A stretch of 33,780 nucleotides of DNA from Acetofilamentum sp. (GTDB taxonomy: Bacteria > Bacteroidota > Bacteroidia > Bacteroidales > DYOH01): NCBI GenBank assembly GCA_020720625.1, contig DYOH01000038.1, positions 1 through 33,780 of the forward strand, written 5' to 3'. Below the pieces are notes generated by a model, which was not told the origin of the DNA, searched no databases, and worked only from the letters and a program-made list of their open reading frames with translations. How positions within the stretch are numbered: position 1 is the stretch's first letter; every line of letters begins with the position of its first letter. The position numbers and the translations under genes were made by a program. Shown here piece by piece: positions 98-8,640 of the stretch.

Positions 98-3000
98 TTA
101 AAATGTTACATTAATACCACCCATCAATGTTCTGGCTTGTGGATAGTTACCCAAATCAATACCATAATTAAATACGCCACCACCAATTTCGGGATCGTAA
201 CCGGAATATTTCGTAAACGTGAATAAGTTTTCGGCACTTACATATAATCTCAGCTTGCTAATTTTAATAGCATTGGTTAATTCAGCAGGAATAGTATATC
301 CAAACGACAGATTTTTCAATCTTAGATAATCTGCATCTTCTACATAAAAATCACTGGCTGTTTTAAGGTTATTGTTGTTATCCAACAAGGTAACTCTAGG
401 ATATTCGGTGCTTGTACCTTCACCTGTCCAACGATTTTCGTAAAATTCGGTACCATAGTTGGTATAAGGCTGGTCGTAACGACGGTAAGCCATCCAAATC
501 TGATGTCCTAGTGCGGTATACCAAAACATATTGAAATCAAATCCTTTGTAATTTAAGGCAATATTCAAACCACCTGTAAAATCAGGCATTGGGTTTCCAA
601 GATTTACCCTATCATCGCTGTCGGTAAGTTTACCATCGCCGTTTTGATCTTTGAATTTGAAATCACCTGGTTTTGCATTCGGCTGAACTTTGTTGCCATC
701 AGCATTTACATAAGCATCAATCTCGGCCTGTGTCTGGAATACACCTTCTACCTGATATCCCCAGAAAAATCCCATTGGTGTACCAATTTCGGCTCTTAAT
801 ACCTGGCTTTGACCAAATCCGGCATCACCGCCAGTAAGAATTTTCTCGGCATTGTTGATGGCCAATACTTCGTTTTTGTTGTAAGCACCGGTTAATGTAA
901 TATCATAGCTGAAATCTTTCATTGAATTGTGGAAACCGAGTTCTAACTCAATACCCTTGTTTGAGATTTCGCCACCGTTAACAATCGGAGGAGTATTACC
1001 TAAAATAAGTGGTGCAGGCGCTTGTACTAACCAGTCTTTGGTTTTCTTCTGATAGAAATCAATACTTGCTGTAATTTTGTCGTTCATAAAACCTAAATCC
1101 AAAGCTACGTCAATTTGCTCTGAAGTTTCCCATTTTAAATCGGGATTAGGAATACGAGAAGGCTGAATACCATTGTACTGAATAGGATCAACACCAAAAT
1201 AATATATCTGACCATTAGACATAGTAGTAGTATAGGCAAAATCACCAATGTTAGCATTACCGTTTTGTCCCCAGCTTGCTCTAATTTTACCAAATGTAAG
1301 AATATTGTTTTCTGGGAAGAAACCTTCTTTTGTAAATACCCAACCTGCACTAGCCGATGGGAAAATACCAAATTTGTTGTTCGGGCCGAAACGAGAAGAA
1401 CCATCGCGGCGAACAGTAGCGCTAAACATATATCTTTCAGCAAAATCCACGTTGGCACGGGCAAAATGCGAAAGGAATGTGTTCTCGGCGTATCCGCCCC
1501 AGCTGTTGGCACTTGCAGGATCGGTTGCATTATTAATATAAGCATGCTCGAAATCATCGAAAATCAAAGTAGATTTAGTACCGCCCAAATTGGTTGTCCA
1601 ATTTTTGAATGCACTATGTCCGGCGATTAAGTTAATATGCCAATCGTTGAAATATTTATCATAAGCTACTACATTTTCCCAGTTCCAAGTAACATATTTG
1701 TTAAATTCGGTGGTTACGCGGTCGAAATTATTGTATTTGGTCGACGACAAATAATAGATTGGAGTGAAACTGCGTGAATTAACAAAAGCATATTCGGTGC
1801 CGTAGGATGTACGGAAAGTTAATCCTTGTAATGCATCCATCAGGTGACCAAAATTTAGCTCGGCAAACACACCTCCAATGGCTTTGTTTACAATACCACT
1901 ATTGTTGCGAATTGATAGCAAACCAACTGGGTTTGTAATCTCTTGCATACCTAAACCATATTGTGCAGGAAATGCGTAAGTACCATCTTCGTGCATCACC
2001 GGAATTACAGGCGGCATATTCAAAGCCTGTGCTAATGACATCCCATATTTATCATTGGCATCGATACCTTTAGTTTCGATATAAGCCAAAGTAAGGTTAG
2101 AACCTAATTTCAGCATACCAAAATCCTGAGTTACGTTTGTTCTCCAAGTAATACGATCGAAATACGATTTATCTTTGGCTACAATGCCTTGTTGCGAGAA
2201 ATACGACAAAGAAGATGAATAAGTAGTATGTTCCGAACCACCGCTAAAGCCAAAAGTATGGCTCATTTTGGGAGCATCGTAATGGAACATTTCATCCTGC
2301 CAGTCGGTATTAGCTGTAAGCGTATCTATTCTGGCCTGATTAAAAGGAATAGGCTGATTAGCATTGGCAGCCGCCTCATTCATGATTTCGAAATACTGGT
2401 CGGATTCCAACACTGACATTTTTTTCCATGGATTTTGAGAACCATAATAAGCATCGTAAGTTACAGTAAAAGCCTGATTCTTTTTGCCGCCTTTTGTTGT
2501 AATTAAAATTACACCATTGGCACCACGAGCACCGTAAATAGCAGCAGAAGCAGCATCTTTCAACACTTCAACCGACTCAATATCCGAGGGATTAAGATAA
2601 TCAATAGCAGCGCCACTAGCTGGCAAACCATCAATTAAATACAAAGGATCGTTGTCTCCATTGGTACCAATACCACGAATACGAATAGACACTGCCGAAC
2701 CGGGTTGTCCGCTGTTGCTTGAAATAACCACACCGGAAGTTTTTCCTTGAAGTGCCTGAGTAACTCTTAAATCGGCGCTTTTAGAAAGTTCTTCGGCAGA
2801 TACCTTAGAAATGGCACCGGTAACCAAACTTTTCTTTTGCACACCATATCCTACAACTACAACTTCTTCCAAACCAATTTCGTCTGTTTCCAATTGCACA
2901 TTAATCACTGTTTGGCCATCAATAGCCACAGTTTTAGATTTCATGCCCACAAAAGAGAAAACAAGTTCGTTAAACTCTGATGGAACAGCTAAACTATATT

Positions 3001-3175
3001 TTCCATCGAAATCGGTAAGCGTACCAATTCCTGAAGTGCCTTTCACGGCCACCGTTACGCCTTGAATTGTCAAACCGTCGGCTGCGCCGGTAACAGTTCC
3101 GGTAATTGTCTGTGTTTGAGCCATTAGCCCAAAACTAAACAATGTAAAAATTAAAACGAGATAAAACTTCATCAT
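98..3175 (-). CDS. SusC/RagA-like TonB-dependent outer-membrane receptor
   Basis: This 1025-aa protein should import oligosaccharides across the outer membrane using TonB energy, normally under a SusD lipoprotein lid. A signal peptide (about residues 1-20, ending LMAQ) is followed by a carboxypeptidase-regulatory-like beta domain (about 22-100), the SusC hallmark EEVVVVGYG at 103-111, a plug domain (about 115-230, with LYLIDGLPAS and SAAIYGARGANGVILITTK-type sequence) and a long beta-barrel ending in the aromatic GGINVTF. Length and order are typical of the SusC family. It lies 21 bp downstream of the GH3 gene on the same strand, so they are probably cotranscribed. SusD is expected next; only 97 bases remain to the left, where an ATG at 5-7 (minus strand) could start it but cannot be confirmed. 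The substrate is not readable from the sequence; the GH3 neighbour suggests a beta-glucan. Confidence 0.96.
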   Translation of the reverse strand: MMKFYLVLIFTLFSFGLMAQTQTITGTVTGAADGLTIQGVTVAVKGTSGIGTLTDFDGKYSLAVPSEFNELVFSFVGMKSKTVAIDGQTVINVQLETDEIGLEEVVVVGYGVQKKSLVTGAISKVSAEELSKSADLRVTQALQGKTSGVVISSNSGQPGSAVSIRIRGIGTNGDNDPLYLIDGLPASGAAIDYLNPSDIESVEVLKDAASAAIYGARGANGVILITTKGGKKNQAFTVTYDAYYGSQNPWKKMSVLESDQYFEIMNEAAANANQPIPFNQARIDTLTANTDWQDEMFHYDAPKMSHTFGFSGGSEHTTYSSSLSYFSQQGIVAKDKSYFDRITWRTNVTQDFGMLKLGSNLTLAYIETKGIDANDKYGMSLAQALNMPPVIPVMHEDGTYAFPAQYGLGMQEITNPVGLLSIRNNSGIVNKAIGGVFAELNFGHLMDALQGLTFRTSYGTEYAFVNSRSFTPIYYLSSTKYNNFDRVTTEFNKYVTWNWENVVAYDKYFNDWHINLIAGHSAFKNWTTNLGGTKSTLIFDDFEHAYINNATDPASANSWGGYAENTFLSHFARANVDFAERYMFSATVRRDGSSRFGPNNKFGIFPSASAGWVFTKEGFFPENNILTFGKIRASWGQNGNANIGDFAYTTTMSNGQIYYFGVDPIQYNGIQPSRIPNPDLKWETSEQIDVALDLGFMNDKITASIDFYQKKTKDWLVQAPAPLILGNTPPIVNGGEISNKGIELELGFHNSMKDFSYDITLTGAYNKNEVLAINNAEKILTGGDAGFGQSQVLRAEIGTPMGFFWGYQVEGVFQTQAEIDAYVNADGNKVQPNAKPGDFKFKDQNGDGKLTDSDDRVNLGNPMPDFTGGLNIALNYKGFDFNMFWYTALGHQIWMAYRRYDQPYTNYGTEFYENRWTGEGTSTEYPRVTLLDNNNNLKTASDFYVEDADYLRLKNLSFGYTIPAELTNAIKISKLRLYVSAENLFTFTKYSGYDPEIGGGVFNYGIDLGNYPQARTLMGGINVTF

Positions 3176-3196: not shown

Positions 3197-5476
3197 TTAT
3201 TTAAGGAAAAAATTTTGTGTTATCGATCCTATTTGCGCTTTAAACTCGCCTTTTTCAGTAATCCATTTGTTGTCTATACCTACAAAAGCCATGTCCAGCG
3301 CCCTTACTTCAAAACTCACGATTTTGGTTTCCCCTGGGTTTAGTTCAATTTTGCTGAAACCGCGTAAACGCTTCACAGAAGGCGTAATGCTTGCATATAA
3401 ATCTGAGATGTAAAGCTCAACGGTTTCTTTGCCCACTCTGCTTCCGGTATTTTTCACATCTACCGAAATTGTTAAAGCAGTGGTTTCGGTAAATTCTGTT
3501 GAACTTAGTTTCAGATTGCTGTATTCGAAAGTGGTGTAGCTTAATCCGGTGCCAAATTCAAACTGAGGATAAAATTCGCTTCGACCTTTGCCCATATCCA
3601 ATTGCTCGGTAAACTTATGATCGTAAGCAACCAATGCGTTTGGAAAGCGCGGGTAAGTATAAGGAAGTTTTCCCGAAGGATTAGCATCGCCAAACAACAC
3701 ATCAGCAATGGCCTCCCCACCTTCGTTGCCGGGTAAATACGCCATCAGCACTGATTTGTAGTTTTCGTTTATTTTGCTGATAATTCTTGGTCGACCTTCA
3801 ACTAAAACCATTACCATCGGTTTTCCGGTAGCGATTAATGCATTGGCCAAATCAACCTGTGCTTGCGGCAGATATAAATCATCAATATCACCGGGCTTTT
3901 CCGTGTATGAATTTTCGCCTATACACAAAACAACTGCATCAACAGATTTGGCTTTAGAAACCGCTTCGGCTATATTTACTTCTTTTTCAAATTCGCTGCC
4001 CAGTACATATACCACTTTGGCCTCTCCTATTTTCTGTTGAATAGCCTCCAAAATAGTGTTTTTATCTTTGGCATATTCATCCGTTTGTTCGCCCTGCCAA
4101 GTGTAAGACCAGCCACCATTAAGCGCACGCATAGAATTTGCTGCCGGACCTACAAGCAACACTTTTTTGTCTTTGGATAATGGTAAGGTCTGGTCCTCGT
4201 TTTTCAAAAGCGTAAGCGATTCGATTGCCGCATTCTTGCTAAGCAAACGGAATTTTTCGCTACCAAAATCGGGATAATCCTGAGGATGAGTAACCGGGGT
4301 TTCGAATAATCCGAGTTCTTGTTTTACCCATAAAATTCTGCGCACCGATTCATTTATTCTTTCCTCGGAAATTTCGCCTTCATTTACAAGTTCTAATAAA
4401 TAGGTATAGAAAGAAAAATCGTCGGGTACCATACTCATATCAATACCAGCCAAAATGGCAAGTTTTACGGCTTCTTTAGGGGATGCCGCTATTTTATGAC
4501 GCGTGTATAAATATTTTATATCTTCCCAATCGCTCACAGCAAGTCCTTTAAAATTTAATTCGTTTCTGAGCACTTCGGTAAGCATCCAGGAGTTGGCGTG
4601 AGCCGGAATACCATTTACTTCGGCCGAATTAACCATAAGCGTATGAGCGCCTTGTTCAAAAGCAGCCTGAAAAGAAGGCAAGAAATATTCGCGTAAATAT
4701 CTTTCGGGAATCCAGGCCGGCGTACGGTCTTTACCGCTTAAAGGAGCACTGTAGGCAAAATAATGTTTTGTGCAGGCAGCCACTTTGGTTTTGTCGGAAA
4801 TATCATCTCCTTCGTAACCTTTCACAAGGGCTTTGCCCATTACTTTTGCCAGAAATACATCTTCGCCAAAAGTCTCCCAAAAACGAGGCCATGCAGCATT
4901 TCGTCCCAAATCAAGAACCGGCGAAAAATTCCAGGGTATTGAAGATGCTCTGGTTTCGTAAGCTACAACAGCACCAATTTCTTGAACCGCCTCCGGATTT
5001 CTGGATGCAGCCATATTAATCTGTTGAGGAAATAGCGTTGAACCTATGGTATAATTTACACCGTGAATTGCATCTATACCATATATAATAGGAATACCCA
5101 ATCGTGTTTTGTTCACAGCCGCATCTTGTATCTGTGAAATAATAGAATGCCAGTGTTCTTGAGAATAAGCATGTCCGGCATTATTTAAAATTGAGCCAAC
5201 ATGATATTCGGTAATGGCCTTCATCAATTTTGCCGTATCTAAGCGGTGTGGATCCGGAACATTGTAAATTTCGCCCACCGAAATCACATCGAGCGTAACC
5301 TGTGTCATCTGACCAATCTTTTCTTCGATAGTCATTTTAGAAACAAGTTCTTCAATTTTGTCACCATATTGGTTTGCTGCATTCGTTTGCGGTTTGTTGC
5401 ACGATGCGATAAGCAATCCGATAACGAGCCCTATGGTAATAAAAATGATAAACAGTATAAATAGCTTTTTATTCAT
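3197..5476 (-). CDS. Glycoside hydrolase family 3 beta-glucosidase, lipoprotein
   Basis: This 759-aa GH3 enzyme is predicted to release glucose from the non-reducing end of beta-glucosides. The N-terminus is a lipoprotein signal with lipobox LIASC (Cys26), so the enzyme should be anchored to a membrane and act outside the cytoplasm. GH3 landmarks run in order: GIPIIYGIDAIHG, ETFGEDVFLAKVMGKA, the KHYF motif near residue 235, and GLAVSDWEDI near 315, where the Asp of SDW is the expected nucleophile. The GH3 C-terminal domain (TLLKNEDQTLPLSK onward) and a fibronectin III-like domain (TVELYISD) follow. It is the first gene of the GH3-SusC unit and has its own promoter with upstream repeats. Family assignment is firm. 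The linkage specificity (beta-1,3 or beta-1,4; laminarin-type substrates are plausible) is inference. Confidence 0.95.
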   Translation of the reverse strand: MNKKLFILFIIFITIGLVIGLLIASCNKPQTNAANQYGDKIEELVSKMTIEEKIGQMTQVTLDVISVGEIYNVPDPHRLDTAKLMKAITEYHVGSILNNAGHAYSQEHWHSIISQIQDAAVNKTRLGIPIIYGIDAIHGVNYTIGSTLFPQQINMAASRNPEAVQEIGAVVAYETRASSIPWNFSPVLDLGRNAAWPRFWETFGEDVFLAKVMGKALVKGYEGDDISDKTKVAACTKHYFAYSAPLSGKDRTPAWIPERYLREYFLPSFQAAFEQGAHTLMVNSAEVNGIPAHANSWMLTEVLRNELNFKGLAVSDWEDIKYLYTRHKIAASPKEAVKLAILAGIDMSMVPDDFSFYTYLLELVNEGEISEERINESVRRILWVKQELGLFETPVTHPQDYPDFGSEKFRLLSKNAAIESLTLLKNEDQTLPLSKDKKVLLVGPAANSMRALNGGWSYTWQGEQTDEYAKDKNTILEAIQQKIGEAKVVYVLGSEFEKEVNIAEAVSKAKSVDAVVLCIGENSYTEKPGDIDDLYLPQAQVDLANALIATGKPMVMVLVEGRPRIISKINENYKSVLMAYLPGNEGGEAIADVLFGDANPSGKLPYTYPRFPNALVAYDHKFTEQLDMGKGRSEFYPQFEFGTGLSYTTFEYSNLKLSSTEFTETTALTISVDVKNTGSRVGKETVELYISDLYASITPSVKRLRGFSKIELNPGETKIVSFEVRALDMAFVGIDNKWITEKGEFKAQIGSITQNFFLK

Positions 5477-5524: not shown

Positions 5525-5556
5525 CAAACTTACTGCAAGCGTTTGCGTTAAACAAA
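5525..5556 (-). promoter_or_regulatory. Promoter of the GH3-SusC operon, with a LacI-like palindrome in the spacer
   Basis: On the minus strand there is TTTG (5553-5556), a 20-bp spacer and TAAGTTTG (5525-5532). This matches the Bacteroidota -33/-7 consensus TTTG ... TAnnTTTG. The start codon lies about 49 bp downstream of the -7 box. The spacer holds a near-palindrome, GCAAACGCTTGC (5535-5546, one mismatch between half-sites), resembling LacI-family operators. A protein bound there would block the promoter. The match is by eye; no transcript evidence is available. Confidence 0.6.
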
Positions 5557-5563
5557 ATAAGGA

Positions 5564-5613
5564 CTACATCTATTCTACATCATGTTAAATGACATACTAC
5601 ATTTTTACTACAT
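5564..5613 (-). promoter_or_regulatory. Four phased ATGTAG repeats, candidate activator-binding array
   Basis: The hexamer ATGTAG (CTACAT on the plus strand) begins at 5564, 5575, 5597 and 5608. The spacings are 11, 22 and 11 bp, so all copies fall on one face of the helix. Most copies extend to ATGTAGT or GATGTAG. The array ends just upstream of the -33 element of the GH3 promoter, the usual place for an activator. The likely ligand is the LuxR-type HTH of the regulator encoded immediately upstream (inference). Confidence 0.55.
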
Positions 5614-5684
5614 CACATTTTGGTTAAAATTTTATCAATTAACGTTTTAGCAAAAATGATGGATTAAATAATTGTTAAGGAATT

Positions 5685-8576
5685 TTAAATTTGAAGCATA
5701 AATTCGAAAAGATTCTGATCACTATCTATGAATAATTTTTTTCTTAATCTATAGCGCCCAATTTCGACACCTCTGACAGAAATATTCATTAAATGAGCAA
5801 TTTCTTTGGATGAAAGATTAATGCGTAAATAAGCACAAAGTTTTAAATCTTTGGGGGTTAAATCCGGATAATGCTGTTTTAATCGTTTAAAGAAATCGCC
5901 ATGCACTGCTTCGAAGTGCTTTTTAAAAAGCTCCCAGTCCTGATCGAGTCTAATCTCGTCGTCAATAGATTTAATCAACTTATTAACTTGCATAAAAGCT
6001 TTAGAATCTATTTTACTTTCCATCTGCAAAAGCTGATCTTTTATGTTGAGCAAAATTTCATTCTTATGGGTATTTTTAAGCGCCACTGTAGCTAACTCTT
6101 TCTTTTTAAGATCAAAATCCAGATTTTTTCTTTCAATTTCGGTCTGAAGCATGGCATTTCGCAATTTGATAATTTCTTGTTCGGCTAATAGTGCAATTTT
6201 ATCGTGCTCTTCTTTTTGTTTTGTCATCAACTCTTGCTGCTTTTGTTTTATAGCATTCTTGTCCTTTTCAATTCTCAGAGAAATAAAACGCGAAACGATA
6301 TAAGCAAAAATAACCGAAAAAAATATGTAGATAAAATAAGCCAAATAAGTTCTATACCAAGGCACGAGGATAGAAAATCGAAACTCTGCCGTTTTGCTTA
6401 CCTCGCCATAAACATTGAGCGCCCTTACTTTAAAAATGTATTTACCAGGAGGTAAATTCGTATATTCTTTCTGTTTTCGGTTTACCCATTTGCTCCATTG
6501 TTCATCAAAACCAATAAGGTATGTGGAATACAATGTTTTGTCGGAATTCTCAAAAAAAGGTGCAGAAAACCTAAAATACACCGAATTATTTTTATAAGGT
6601 ATTGATACATCATTGTCGAAAAATGCTTGATTTCCGATTAAAAAAGAATGATTACTTCCGGTTAATTTTATTTGTTGAAAAATAGTTCTAAAAGTGCTAT
6701 GCATTGCTAATTGGGGTTTCTGTTGATAACAAACGAATCCGTTTTCAGTGGCAATGATTACAATACCTGAGTCGAGCAAATTAAAATATTCGAATCCCGG
6801 AACCAATGTATTTCCAATTTTATTAAAAATGTTGTTTACAGATTCGCCCATTTTACTAAGAAAAGCTACTTTACCATTATTAATATACCAAGTATTTCCA
6901 GCTTTATCATCAGTAAAGCAACAAGGATTTTGCTGCTTAAACTTTTGAGCAAAATCGGAATTTCGATAAAAGCGCTTTGTGTTTTCATCAAAAGAATAAA
7001 TACCATCTTCTGTCGAAAAAAGAAATTGATTCCGCCAGCTAAATACATCATTGGCAAAATTGGAAGGTAAGCCCTGCTGCTTATTATAAAACTGAATTTG
7101 TTTTACTTTGGATAAATCCTTGTCTAAAAAAATACGGTAAATTCCTTTATAACCATGGCTCATCCACAGTGTTGAATCATTGATCGGCCTAAGTATTCGC
7201 GATGATTCGTTAAAACCCTCCAGCTTTCGAAAAAATTGCCATTGTCCGGCTTTCGATTTTTTTAGTAAACTAAGTCCGTTGTAAGTGCCTACCAACAGCG
7301 CTTCAGGTTGTGCTTTTATAGGTACAAAAATCCAATTTCCAATTTCTTTAGAAATTTTGCGTGCCGTATTTTTCTCCACTACATATACACCTTCGTGATG
7401 ACCGCAAAACAACTTATTATCGTGCACAAACAAGTTCCAAACTTGTCCGCCGGTTCCCTCAATAAATTCTGCCTTTTGCGATGCGCCCTTGGATAAATCA
7501 TAAACATACAGACCCTGATTAGTGCCGAAATATAATCTGTTTTCAAAGTAAGCCGAAGAATAACCTGTGCCCATAATTCCTTTTGCTTCGCTGAATACAG
7601 AAAAGGGTGAATTAATTTCCATGTATGAAATACCGTTGTCCAAACCTAGCCATAAATTTCCGGAATGATCAAAAAACATAGACAATATGGTATTGTTTAT
7701 CAAACCTTGTTCTTTTTGTATGTGCGAAATAATTTTTCCGTTTGTGTGCATCAGGTATAATCCCTGATGAATTGTCCCAAGGGCAAAAACCGTATCAGAT
7801 AAAAACTGCGCACTGTAAATCTGAAAATTATTGATTTTATTTGCCGTATTAAGCTCCTTTTTCTCCCATGAATGTTTTTTTTGGACAAAAAGTCCCTTCG
7901 ACGATATTAACGCTAAATTTTTATCGGCCATTTGATGTATGGCCACTATATCTCCAATATTATCCAAATCATTGGTAATAGTATTTGTTAAACCAGTAGA
8001 ATCAACTAATTCCAATAAACCTTGCGATACATCGAAAACGAATAATCGATTAACAAGGGCAAACGAAAACTGAAACTGCCTGTTTTCGAGAATTGGATAC
8101 ACAATTTGGCCATTATAAGCATAAATTGCCGTAAATGATTGAAAATAAACAATATTGTTTATTTTATGGATTCGCCAAACTTCTCCAAAATTATTTTTTT
8201 GGGGCAATAATGCAGATAAAGAATGATATTGAAAGAAACCCGAAGAATTTCTTTCAAAATAGCCAAATTCTTCGAAAGCGCCTGCATAGACTCTTCCATC
8301 GTTATCGGCATGTACAACGCGCACAACCGAATTATTTGGCATTGGATAAACATACCAGGATGTGGCATCAAATCGAATTAATCCTGAATTATTTGCAAAG
8401 AAAATCTCCCCCTCGGAATTTTGCGTTATGCTCCAGTTCTGGGTTCCAGCTTTGTAGATGTTCTTAGGATAATTGGTAATAAAAGGTATCCCTTCGGAAG
8501 AGAATTGCGCTCTTGAAGATTGAGTGATTGTAAAAAAATAGAAAGCAAAGAGCAAAAATTTTATTTTTGTTCCCAT
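5685..8576 (-). CDS. Membrane-spanning Y_Y_Y / LuxR-type HTH one-component regulator
   Basis: This is a 963-aa sensor-regulator from the chosen start. An in-frame ATG at 8627 adds 17 residues, but the ATG at 8576 directly precedes a clean signal peptide (GTKIKFLLFAFYFFTI). The periplasmic part is a beta-propeller of two-component-regulator repeats (for example NLWLGLDNGISYM, NSEGEIFFANNSGLIRF) followed by a Y_Y_Y domain (about 665-735, NLPPGKYIFKVRALN). One transmembrane helix (about 742-765), a charged coiled coil (about 770-870) and a C-terminal LuxR-like HTH (DLTPKDLKLCAYLRINLSSK, then EIAHLMNISVRGVEIGRYRL) complete it. There is no histidine kinase, ATPase or receiver domain, so it should connect a periplasmic signal directly to DNA binding. 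The neighbouring GH3-SusC operon is the obvious target. Confidence 0.88.
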   Translation of the reverse strand: MGTKIKFLLFAFYFFTITQSSRAQFSSEGIPFITNYPKNIYKAGTQNWSITQNSEGEIFFANNSGLIRFDATSWYVYPMPNNSVVRVVHADNDGRVYAGAFEEFGYFERNSSGFFQYHSLSALLPQKNNFGEVWRIHKINNIVYFQSFTAIYAYNGQIVYPILENRQFQFSFALVNRLFVFDVSQGLLELVDSTGLTNTITNDLDNIGDIVAIHQMADKNLALISSKGLFVQKKHSWEKKELNTANKINNFQIYSAQFLSDTVFALGTIHQGLYLMHTNGKIISHIQKEQGLINNTILSMFFDHSGNLWLGLDNGISYMEINSPFSVFSEAKGIMGTGYSSAYFENRLYFGTNQGLYVYDLSKGASQKAEFIEGTGGQVWNLFVHDNKLFCGHHEGVYVVEKNTARKISKEIGNWIFVPIKAQPEALLVGTYNGLSLLKKSKAGQWQFFRKLEGFNESSRILRPINDSTLWMSHGYKGIYRIFLDKDLSKVKQIQFYNKQQGLPSNFANDVFSWRNQFLFSTEDGIYSFDENTKRFYRNSDFAQKFKQQNPCCFTDDKAGNTWYINNGKVAFLSKMGESVNNIFNKIGNTLVPGFEYFNLLDSGIVIIATENGFVCYQQKPQLAMHSTFRTIFQQIKLTGSNHSFLIGNQAFFDNDVSIPYKNNSVYFRFSAPFFENSDKTLYSTYLIGFDEQWSKWVNRKQKEYTNLPPGKYIFKVRALNVYGEVSKTAEFRFSILVPWYRTYLAYFIYIFFSVIFAYIVSRFISLRIEKDKNAIKQKQQELMTKQKEEHDKIALLAEQEIIKLRNAMLQTEIERKNLDFDLKKKELATVALKNTHKNEILLNIKDQLLQMESKIDSKAFMQVNKLIKSIDDEIRLDQDWELFKKHFEAVHGDFFKRLKQHYPDLTPKDLKLCAYLRINLSSKEIAHLMNISVRGVEIGRYRLRKKLFIDSDQNLFEFMLQI

Positions 8577-8640
8577 GATAATAATTTCAGTTTTAAAAGC
8601 TAAAGTATTCAAAATTTTCAAAATCACTTCATCAAACTAA

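Follow-up and report, generated by a model that had tools for sequence, protein, structure and literature searches.

The window, i.e., the whole 33,780-nt stretch that was analysed, carries on its minus strand a 208-bp intergenic gap between a regulator gene (8627-5685) and a gene for a GH3 glycoside hydrolase (5476-3197), and this gap houses an array of short direct repeats followed by a promoter. The features of the locus, with offsets counted from the first half-site, are:

5685..8627, minus strand: Y_Y_Y/LuxR regulator, 980 aa as called (Pfam, translation and AlphaFold model)
5608..5615, minus strand: predicted activator half-site 1, TGATGTAG (offset 0, distal pair)
5597..5604, minus strand: predicted activator half-site 2, AAATGTAG (offset 11, distal pair)
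5575..5582, minus strand: predicted activator half-site 3, TGATGTAG (offset 33, proximal pair)
5564..5571, minus strand: predicted activator half-site 4, AGATGTAG (offset 44, proximal pair)
5553..5556, minus strand: -33 element TTTG (consensus match)
5535..5546, minus strand: LacI-like near-palindrome GCAAACGCTTGC in the -33/-7 spacer (one mismatch from GCAAACGTTTGC)
5525..5532, minus strand: -7 element TAAGTTTG (offset +83 from half-site 1)
3197..5476, minus strand: first target gene, GH3 glycoside hydrolase (Glyco_hydro_3, 2.7e-72)
98..3175, minus strand: second target gene, SusC-like TonB-dependent receptor (Plug, 3.8e-22; TonB barrel, 2.2e-18)

On the minus strand, ATGTAG occurs four times (5613-5608, 5602-5597, 5580-5575 and 5569-5564) at spacings of 11, 22 and 11 bp. 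Because the family consensus of the half-site is TGATGTA(G/A/T)T, TGATGTAG (starts at 5615, 5604, 5582 and 5571) represents the better register, and the array then spans 5615-5564 with TGATGTAG-type half-sites at relative positions 0, 11, 33 and 44. When the 208-bp gap was randomised 20,000 times under a Markov model, neither four copies of ATGTAG nor two pairs at 11 bp ever arose. The promoter downstream of the array, TTTG-N20-TAAGTTTG, has the form of a Bacteroidota -33/-7 promoter (TTTG, about 20 bp, TAnnTTTG) and matches all four -33 and all six -7 consensus letters; the start of the proximal pair lies 50 bp upstream of the -7 box of the GH3-SusC operon. Five of the six pairs of the near-palindrome GCAAACGCTTGC are matched. 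The arrangement named in the original prediction, i.e., four ATGTAG copies at 11/22/11 bp just upstream of a -33/-7 promoter with a palindrome in its spacer, is thus present in the window.

The translation of the neighbouring regulator reads, from N to C terminus, as a signal-like stretch, a propeller with Y_Y_Y domain, one transmembrane helix, a long coiled coil and a LuxR-type helix-turn-helix (HTH). Pfam matches were found to Y_Y_Y (1.6e-11), Reg_prop (1.4e-6) and GerE (7.2e-4), the last scoring 19.6 bits and thus below its curated cut-off of 23.5; histidine kinase, receiver and AraC domains were absent from these Pfam results. The C-terminal part was modelled with confidence by AlphaFold (pLDDT 90.9) and had LuxR/NarL DNA-binding domains as its nearest folds; the nearest solved isolated domains, those of LiaR, NarL, DosR, VraR and ComA, gave target TM-scores of 0.70-0.81, although no structure match passed E 0.001. 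As modelled, the HTH of the window regulator resembles the LuxR/NarL domains.

The 3.8-Mb genome encodes 16 Y_Y_Y proteins, of which two end in this LuxR-type helix. There are three exact copies of the pair ATGTAGN5ATGTAG in the genome, namely both pairs of the window and one at C44:12092-12108, and all three adjoin one or the other of these two regulators. The C44 pair sits between the second Y_Y_Y/LuxR regulator and a Glycoamylase-SusC-SusD operon, and its promoter, like that of the window, matches the -33/-7 consensus in full and has a near-palindrome of LacI type between the two boxes. The third LuxR-like protein encoded in this genome (L123, G000:C12) carries another recognition helix (QSEDALKKARLRLRQKL), with a near-identical helix in L124, and has no array.

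The original prediction also held that a LacI-type protein represses the window promoter. A single LacI gene was found in the genome; it is divergent from a SusCD pair, and a perfect GCAAACGTTTGC lies between them, at the susC promoter (C19:33289). The spacers of both array promoters hold one-mismatch copies of this palindrome, a further copy lies ahead of an MFS sugar transporter gene, and sites with no more than one mismatch number 17 as compared to 6 for the reversed pattern. The window palindrome itself has the form of a LacI operator, being CG-centred and one mismatch away from the GCAAACGTTTGC beside the lacI gene. All of these observations argue against the palindrome being a chance feature of the spacer, in which case there would be no dual control; this reading is the most probable of the alternatives. 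In its favor, the LacI-like core was found in the spacer of only 4 of 38 loci across the phylum, a marginal enrichment that was reached by 7 of 500 randomisations, and GNAAACGNTTNC was not enriched in genome-wide counts. We consider a chance palindrome rather unlikely, and LacI-type repression at the window promoter plausible from its sequence context. As the phylum-wide enrichment is only marginal, dual control can be called no more than plausible for this lineage, and the repression half of the prediction is less well supported than the activation half.

A separate observation is that a sigma-70-type (ECF-like) gene at L305:787-1383 is located just upstream of the MFS transporter gene whose promoter bears the LacI-like palindrome.

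The original prediction had proposed a search for 11-bp ATGTAG arrays beside other regulators of this type, and this search was positive not only in the same genome but also across Bacteroidota. Since matches to the exact pattern ATGTAGN5ATGTAG over 80 relatives fell mostly away from regulators, the exact pattern was judged too strict and half-sites with mismatches were used instead. The 80 loci drawn from the genome collection yielded 48 that were independent and in which the next gene runs in the same direction (not thinned for relatedness); among these, the spacings of GATGTA-like half-site pairs on the coding strand peaked at 11, 22, 33 and 44 bp, with 18, 10, 11 and 6 loci, respectively, as compared to 2, 0, 0 and 0 on the opposite strand of the same loci and to shuffle means of 0.3-0.5. 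When 28 non-redundant loci were anchored on one pair, a second, unselected pair at 32/33 and 43/44 was present in 13 (shuffle mean 0.09, maximum 1). A -7 box was found at +82/83 in 15 of 38 non-redundant loci (shuffle mean 1.24, maximum 6), and exact -7 boxes occurred 12 times at 50 bp and 7 times at 83 bp from the pair start, with a control maximum of 2. Among the first target genes of 38 arrays, 26 encode a SusC plug domain, 4 a GH3 and 2 a Glycoamylase. One cultured relative that has the array is Labilibaculum (L160).

Overall, 50 of the 107 regulators with this helix have a strong array nearby (6 of 107 in the opposite-strand control), as does 1 of 13 regulators with another recognition helix. 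For the other 57 of the 107, no strong array was found within the regions searched; one case is L125, the closest relative of the window regulator (same genus, HTH 83% identical), which has no array in the 242 bp to the contig end, nor upstream. The prediction was to be given up if homologous loci lacked the repeats; they do not lack them in general, and about half of the regulators, the closest relative included, are without a strong array.

Of 30 loci examined from a pattern scan of 296 Bacteroidota genomes, in which loci were not selected by regulator, 13 had the array next to this HTH, and several matches had no such HTH within 1.5 kb. Twelve of the 13 HTH-adjacent loci (L261-L272) belong to one regulator class and show, after the regulator, a distal 11-bp pair in inverted orientation; in those read by eye, the direct array is nearer to the next gene than the inverted pair. 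This inverted pair, upstream of the direct array, might permit looping or serve a second promoter. Two other loci without such a regulator within 1.5 kb (L257 and L258) carry two pairs about 55 bp apart instead of 33, possibly a five-turn variant. At G049:C80:1120-1209, ATGTAGACGGA is repeated several times head to tail; no HTH of this kind was found in that genome.

The orientation of the arrays follows the target gene. Downstream of the regulators, 40 strong pairs are on the target-facing strand and 6 on the other; upstream, 36 are on the divergent (target-facing) strand and none on the other. At loci with a divergent target, the array upstream of the regulator points toward the divergent gene in 22 cases and away from it in none. 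Autoregulation of the regulator gene through a same-strand array was also considered and rejected, since in 108 loci none of the strong pairs points toward the start of the regulator itself.

The array could alternatively be bound by a different, co-occurring regulator, e.g., a global activator of sugar-uptake operons. The pattern-scan matches that lack a nearby HTH of this kind would fit such a binder, as would the 29 strong pairs found elsewhere in the loci (610 kb). Against it, the density of strong pairs is far higher beside these regulators than inside them (3 in 328 kb), the array accompanies other-helix regulators in the single case noted above, and the exact pairs of the window's own genome are confined to the flanks of its two regulators; a different binder appears improbable. 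That the adjacent regulator represses rather than activates through the array is the least probable alternative by our assessment, for although the direction of control is unreadable from sequence, the pairs stop just short of the -33 box, on its upstream side and at a fixed distance, where an activator usually sits, and the site that overlaps the promoter is the LacI-like one.

The arrays found elsewhere in this genome and in other Bacteroidota, together with their fixed geometry to the -7 box, support activation by the adjacent Y_Y_Y/LuxR regulator as originally predicted, and the window array is very likely the operator of this membrane-spanning one-component activator. The sequence data would be consistent with a mechanism in which the periplasmic propeller binds a glycan fragment and the regulator dimerises through its coiled coil. 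From the geometry, one 11-bp direct repeat would hold two LuxR-type HTHs on the same face of the helix, the distal pair, three turns upstream, would hold a second dimer, and the proximal pair beside the -33 box would recruit RNA polymerase. A LacI-type repressor, which is the weaker part of this scheme, probably sits on the in-promoter palindrome and blocks the promoter until an intracellular sugar signal frees it.

These data also suggest, with good though somewhat lower confidence than for the window array itself, that Y_Y_Y/LuxR one-component activators across Bacteroidota share an operator code of head-to-tail 11-bp repeats, usually two of them 33 bp apart, the one nearer the promoter beginning 50 bp upstream of the -7 box. 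If so, a large class of glycan sensors would have a readable operator code by which the target operons of Y_Y_Y/LuxR sensors could be found and assigned from DNA sequence alone, and LuxR-type domains would be bound head to tail in a fixed register with the Bacteroidota promoter.

Searches of the literature outside most subscription journals turned up neither an account of a Y_Y_Y/LuxR operator nor anything relevant on the motif letters. Among described systems, the SusR-like regulators of Bacteroides are likewise anchored in the membrane and activate polysaccharide-utilisation loci. The operator predicted for them is again built of direct repeats, two in number and separated by 67 or 77 bp (Ravcheev et al. 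2013, PMC3878776), a spacing not seen in the array described here, with its four half-sites at 0/11/33/44. For hybrid two-component systems (HTCS) with an AraC domain, direct repeats about 21 bp apart have been predicted (PMC3878776). The window regulator shares with HTCS the sensor domains Y_Y_Y and Reg_prop (solved relatives 3v9f, 4a2l and 3ott) and the same kind of target operon, but it differs from them in lacking a histidine kinase, receiver and AraC domain and in the geometry of its array. The palindrome GCAAACGTTTGC beside the lacI gene is CG-centred as in LacI-family operators; unlike these, the window palindrome is located within a promoter whose operon bears an activator array as well. 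Finally, the predicted fold of the regulator HTH resembles that of LuxR/NarL-type DNA-binding domains, many of which bind inverted repeats, whereas the sites predicted here are head-to-tail repeats of 11 bp and the HTH is fused to a periplasmic propeller sensor.
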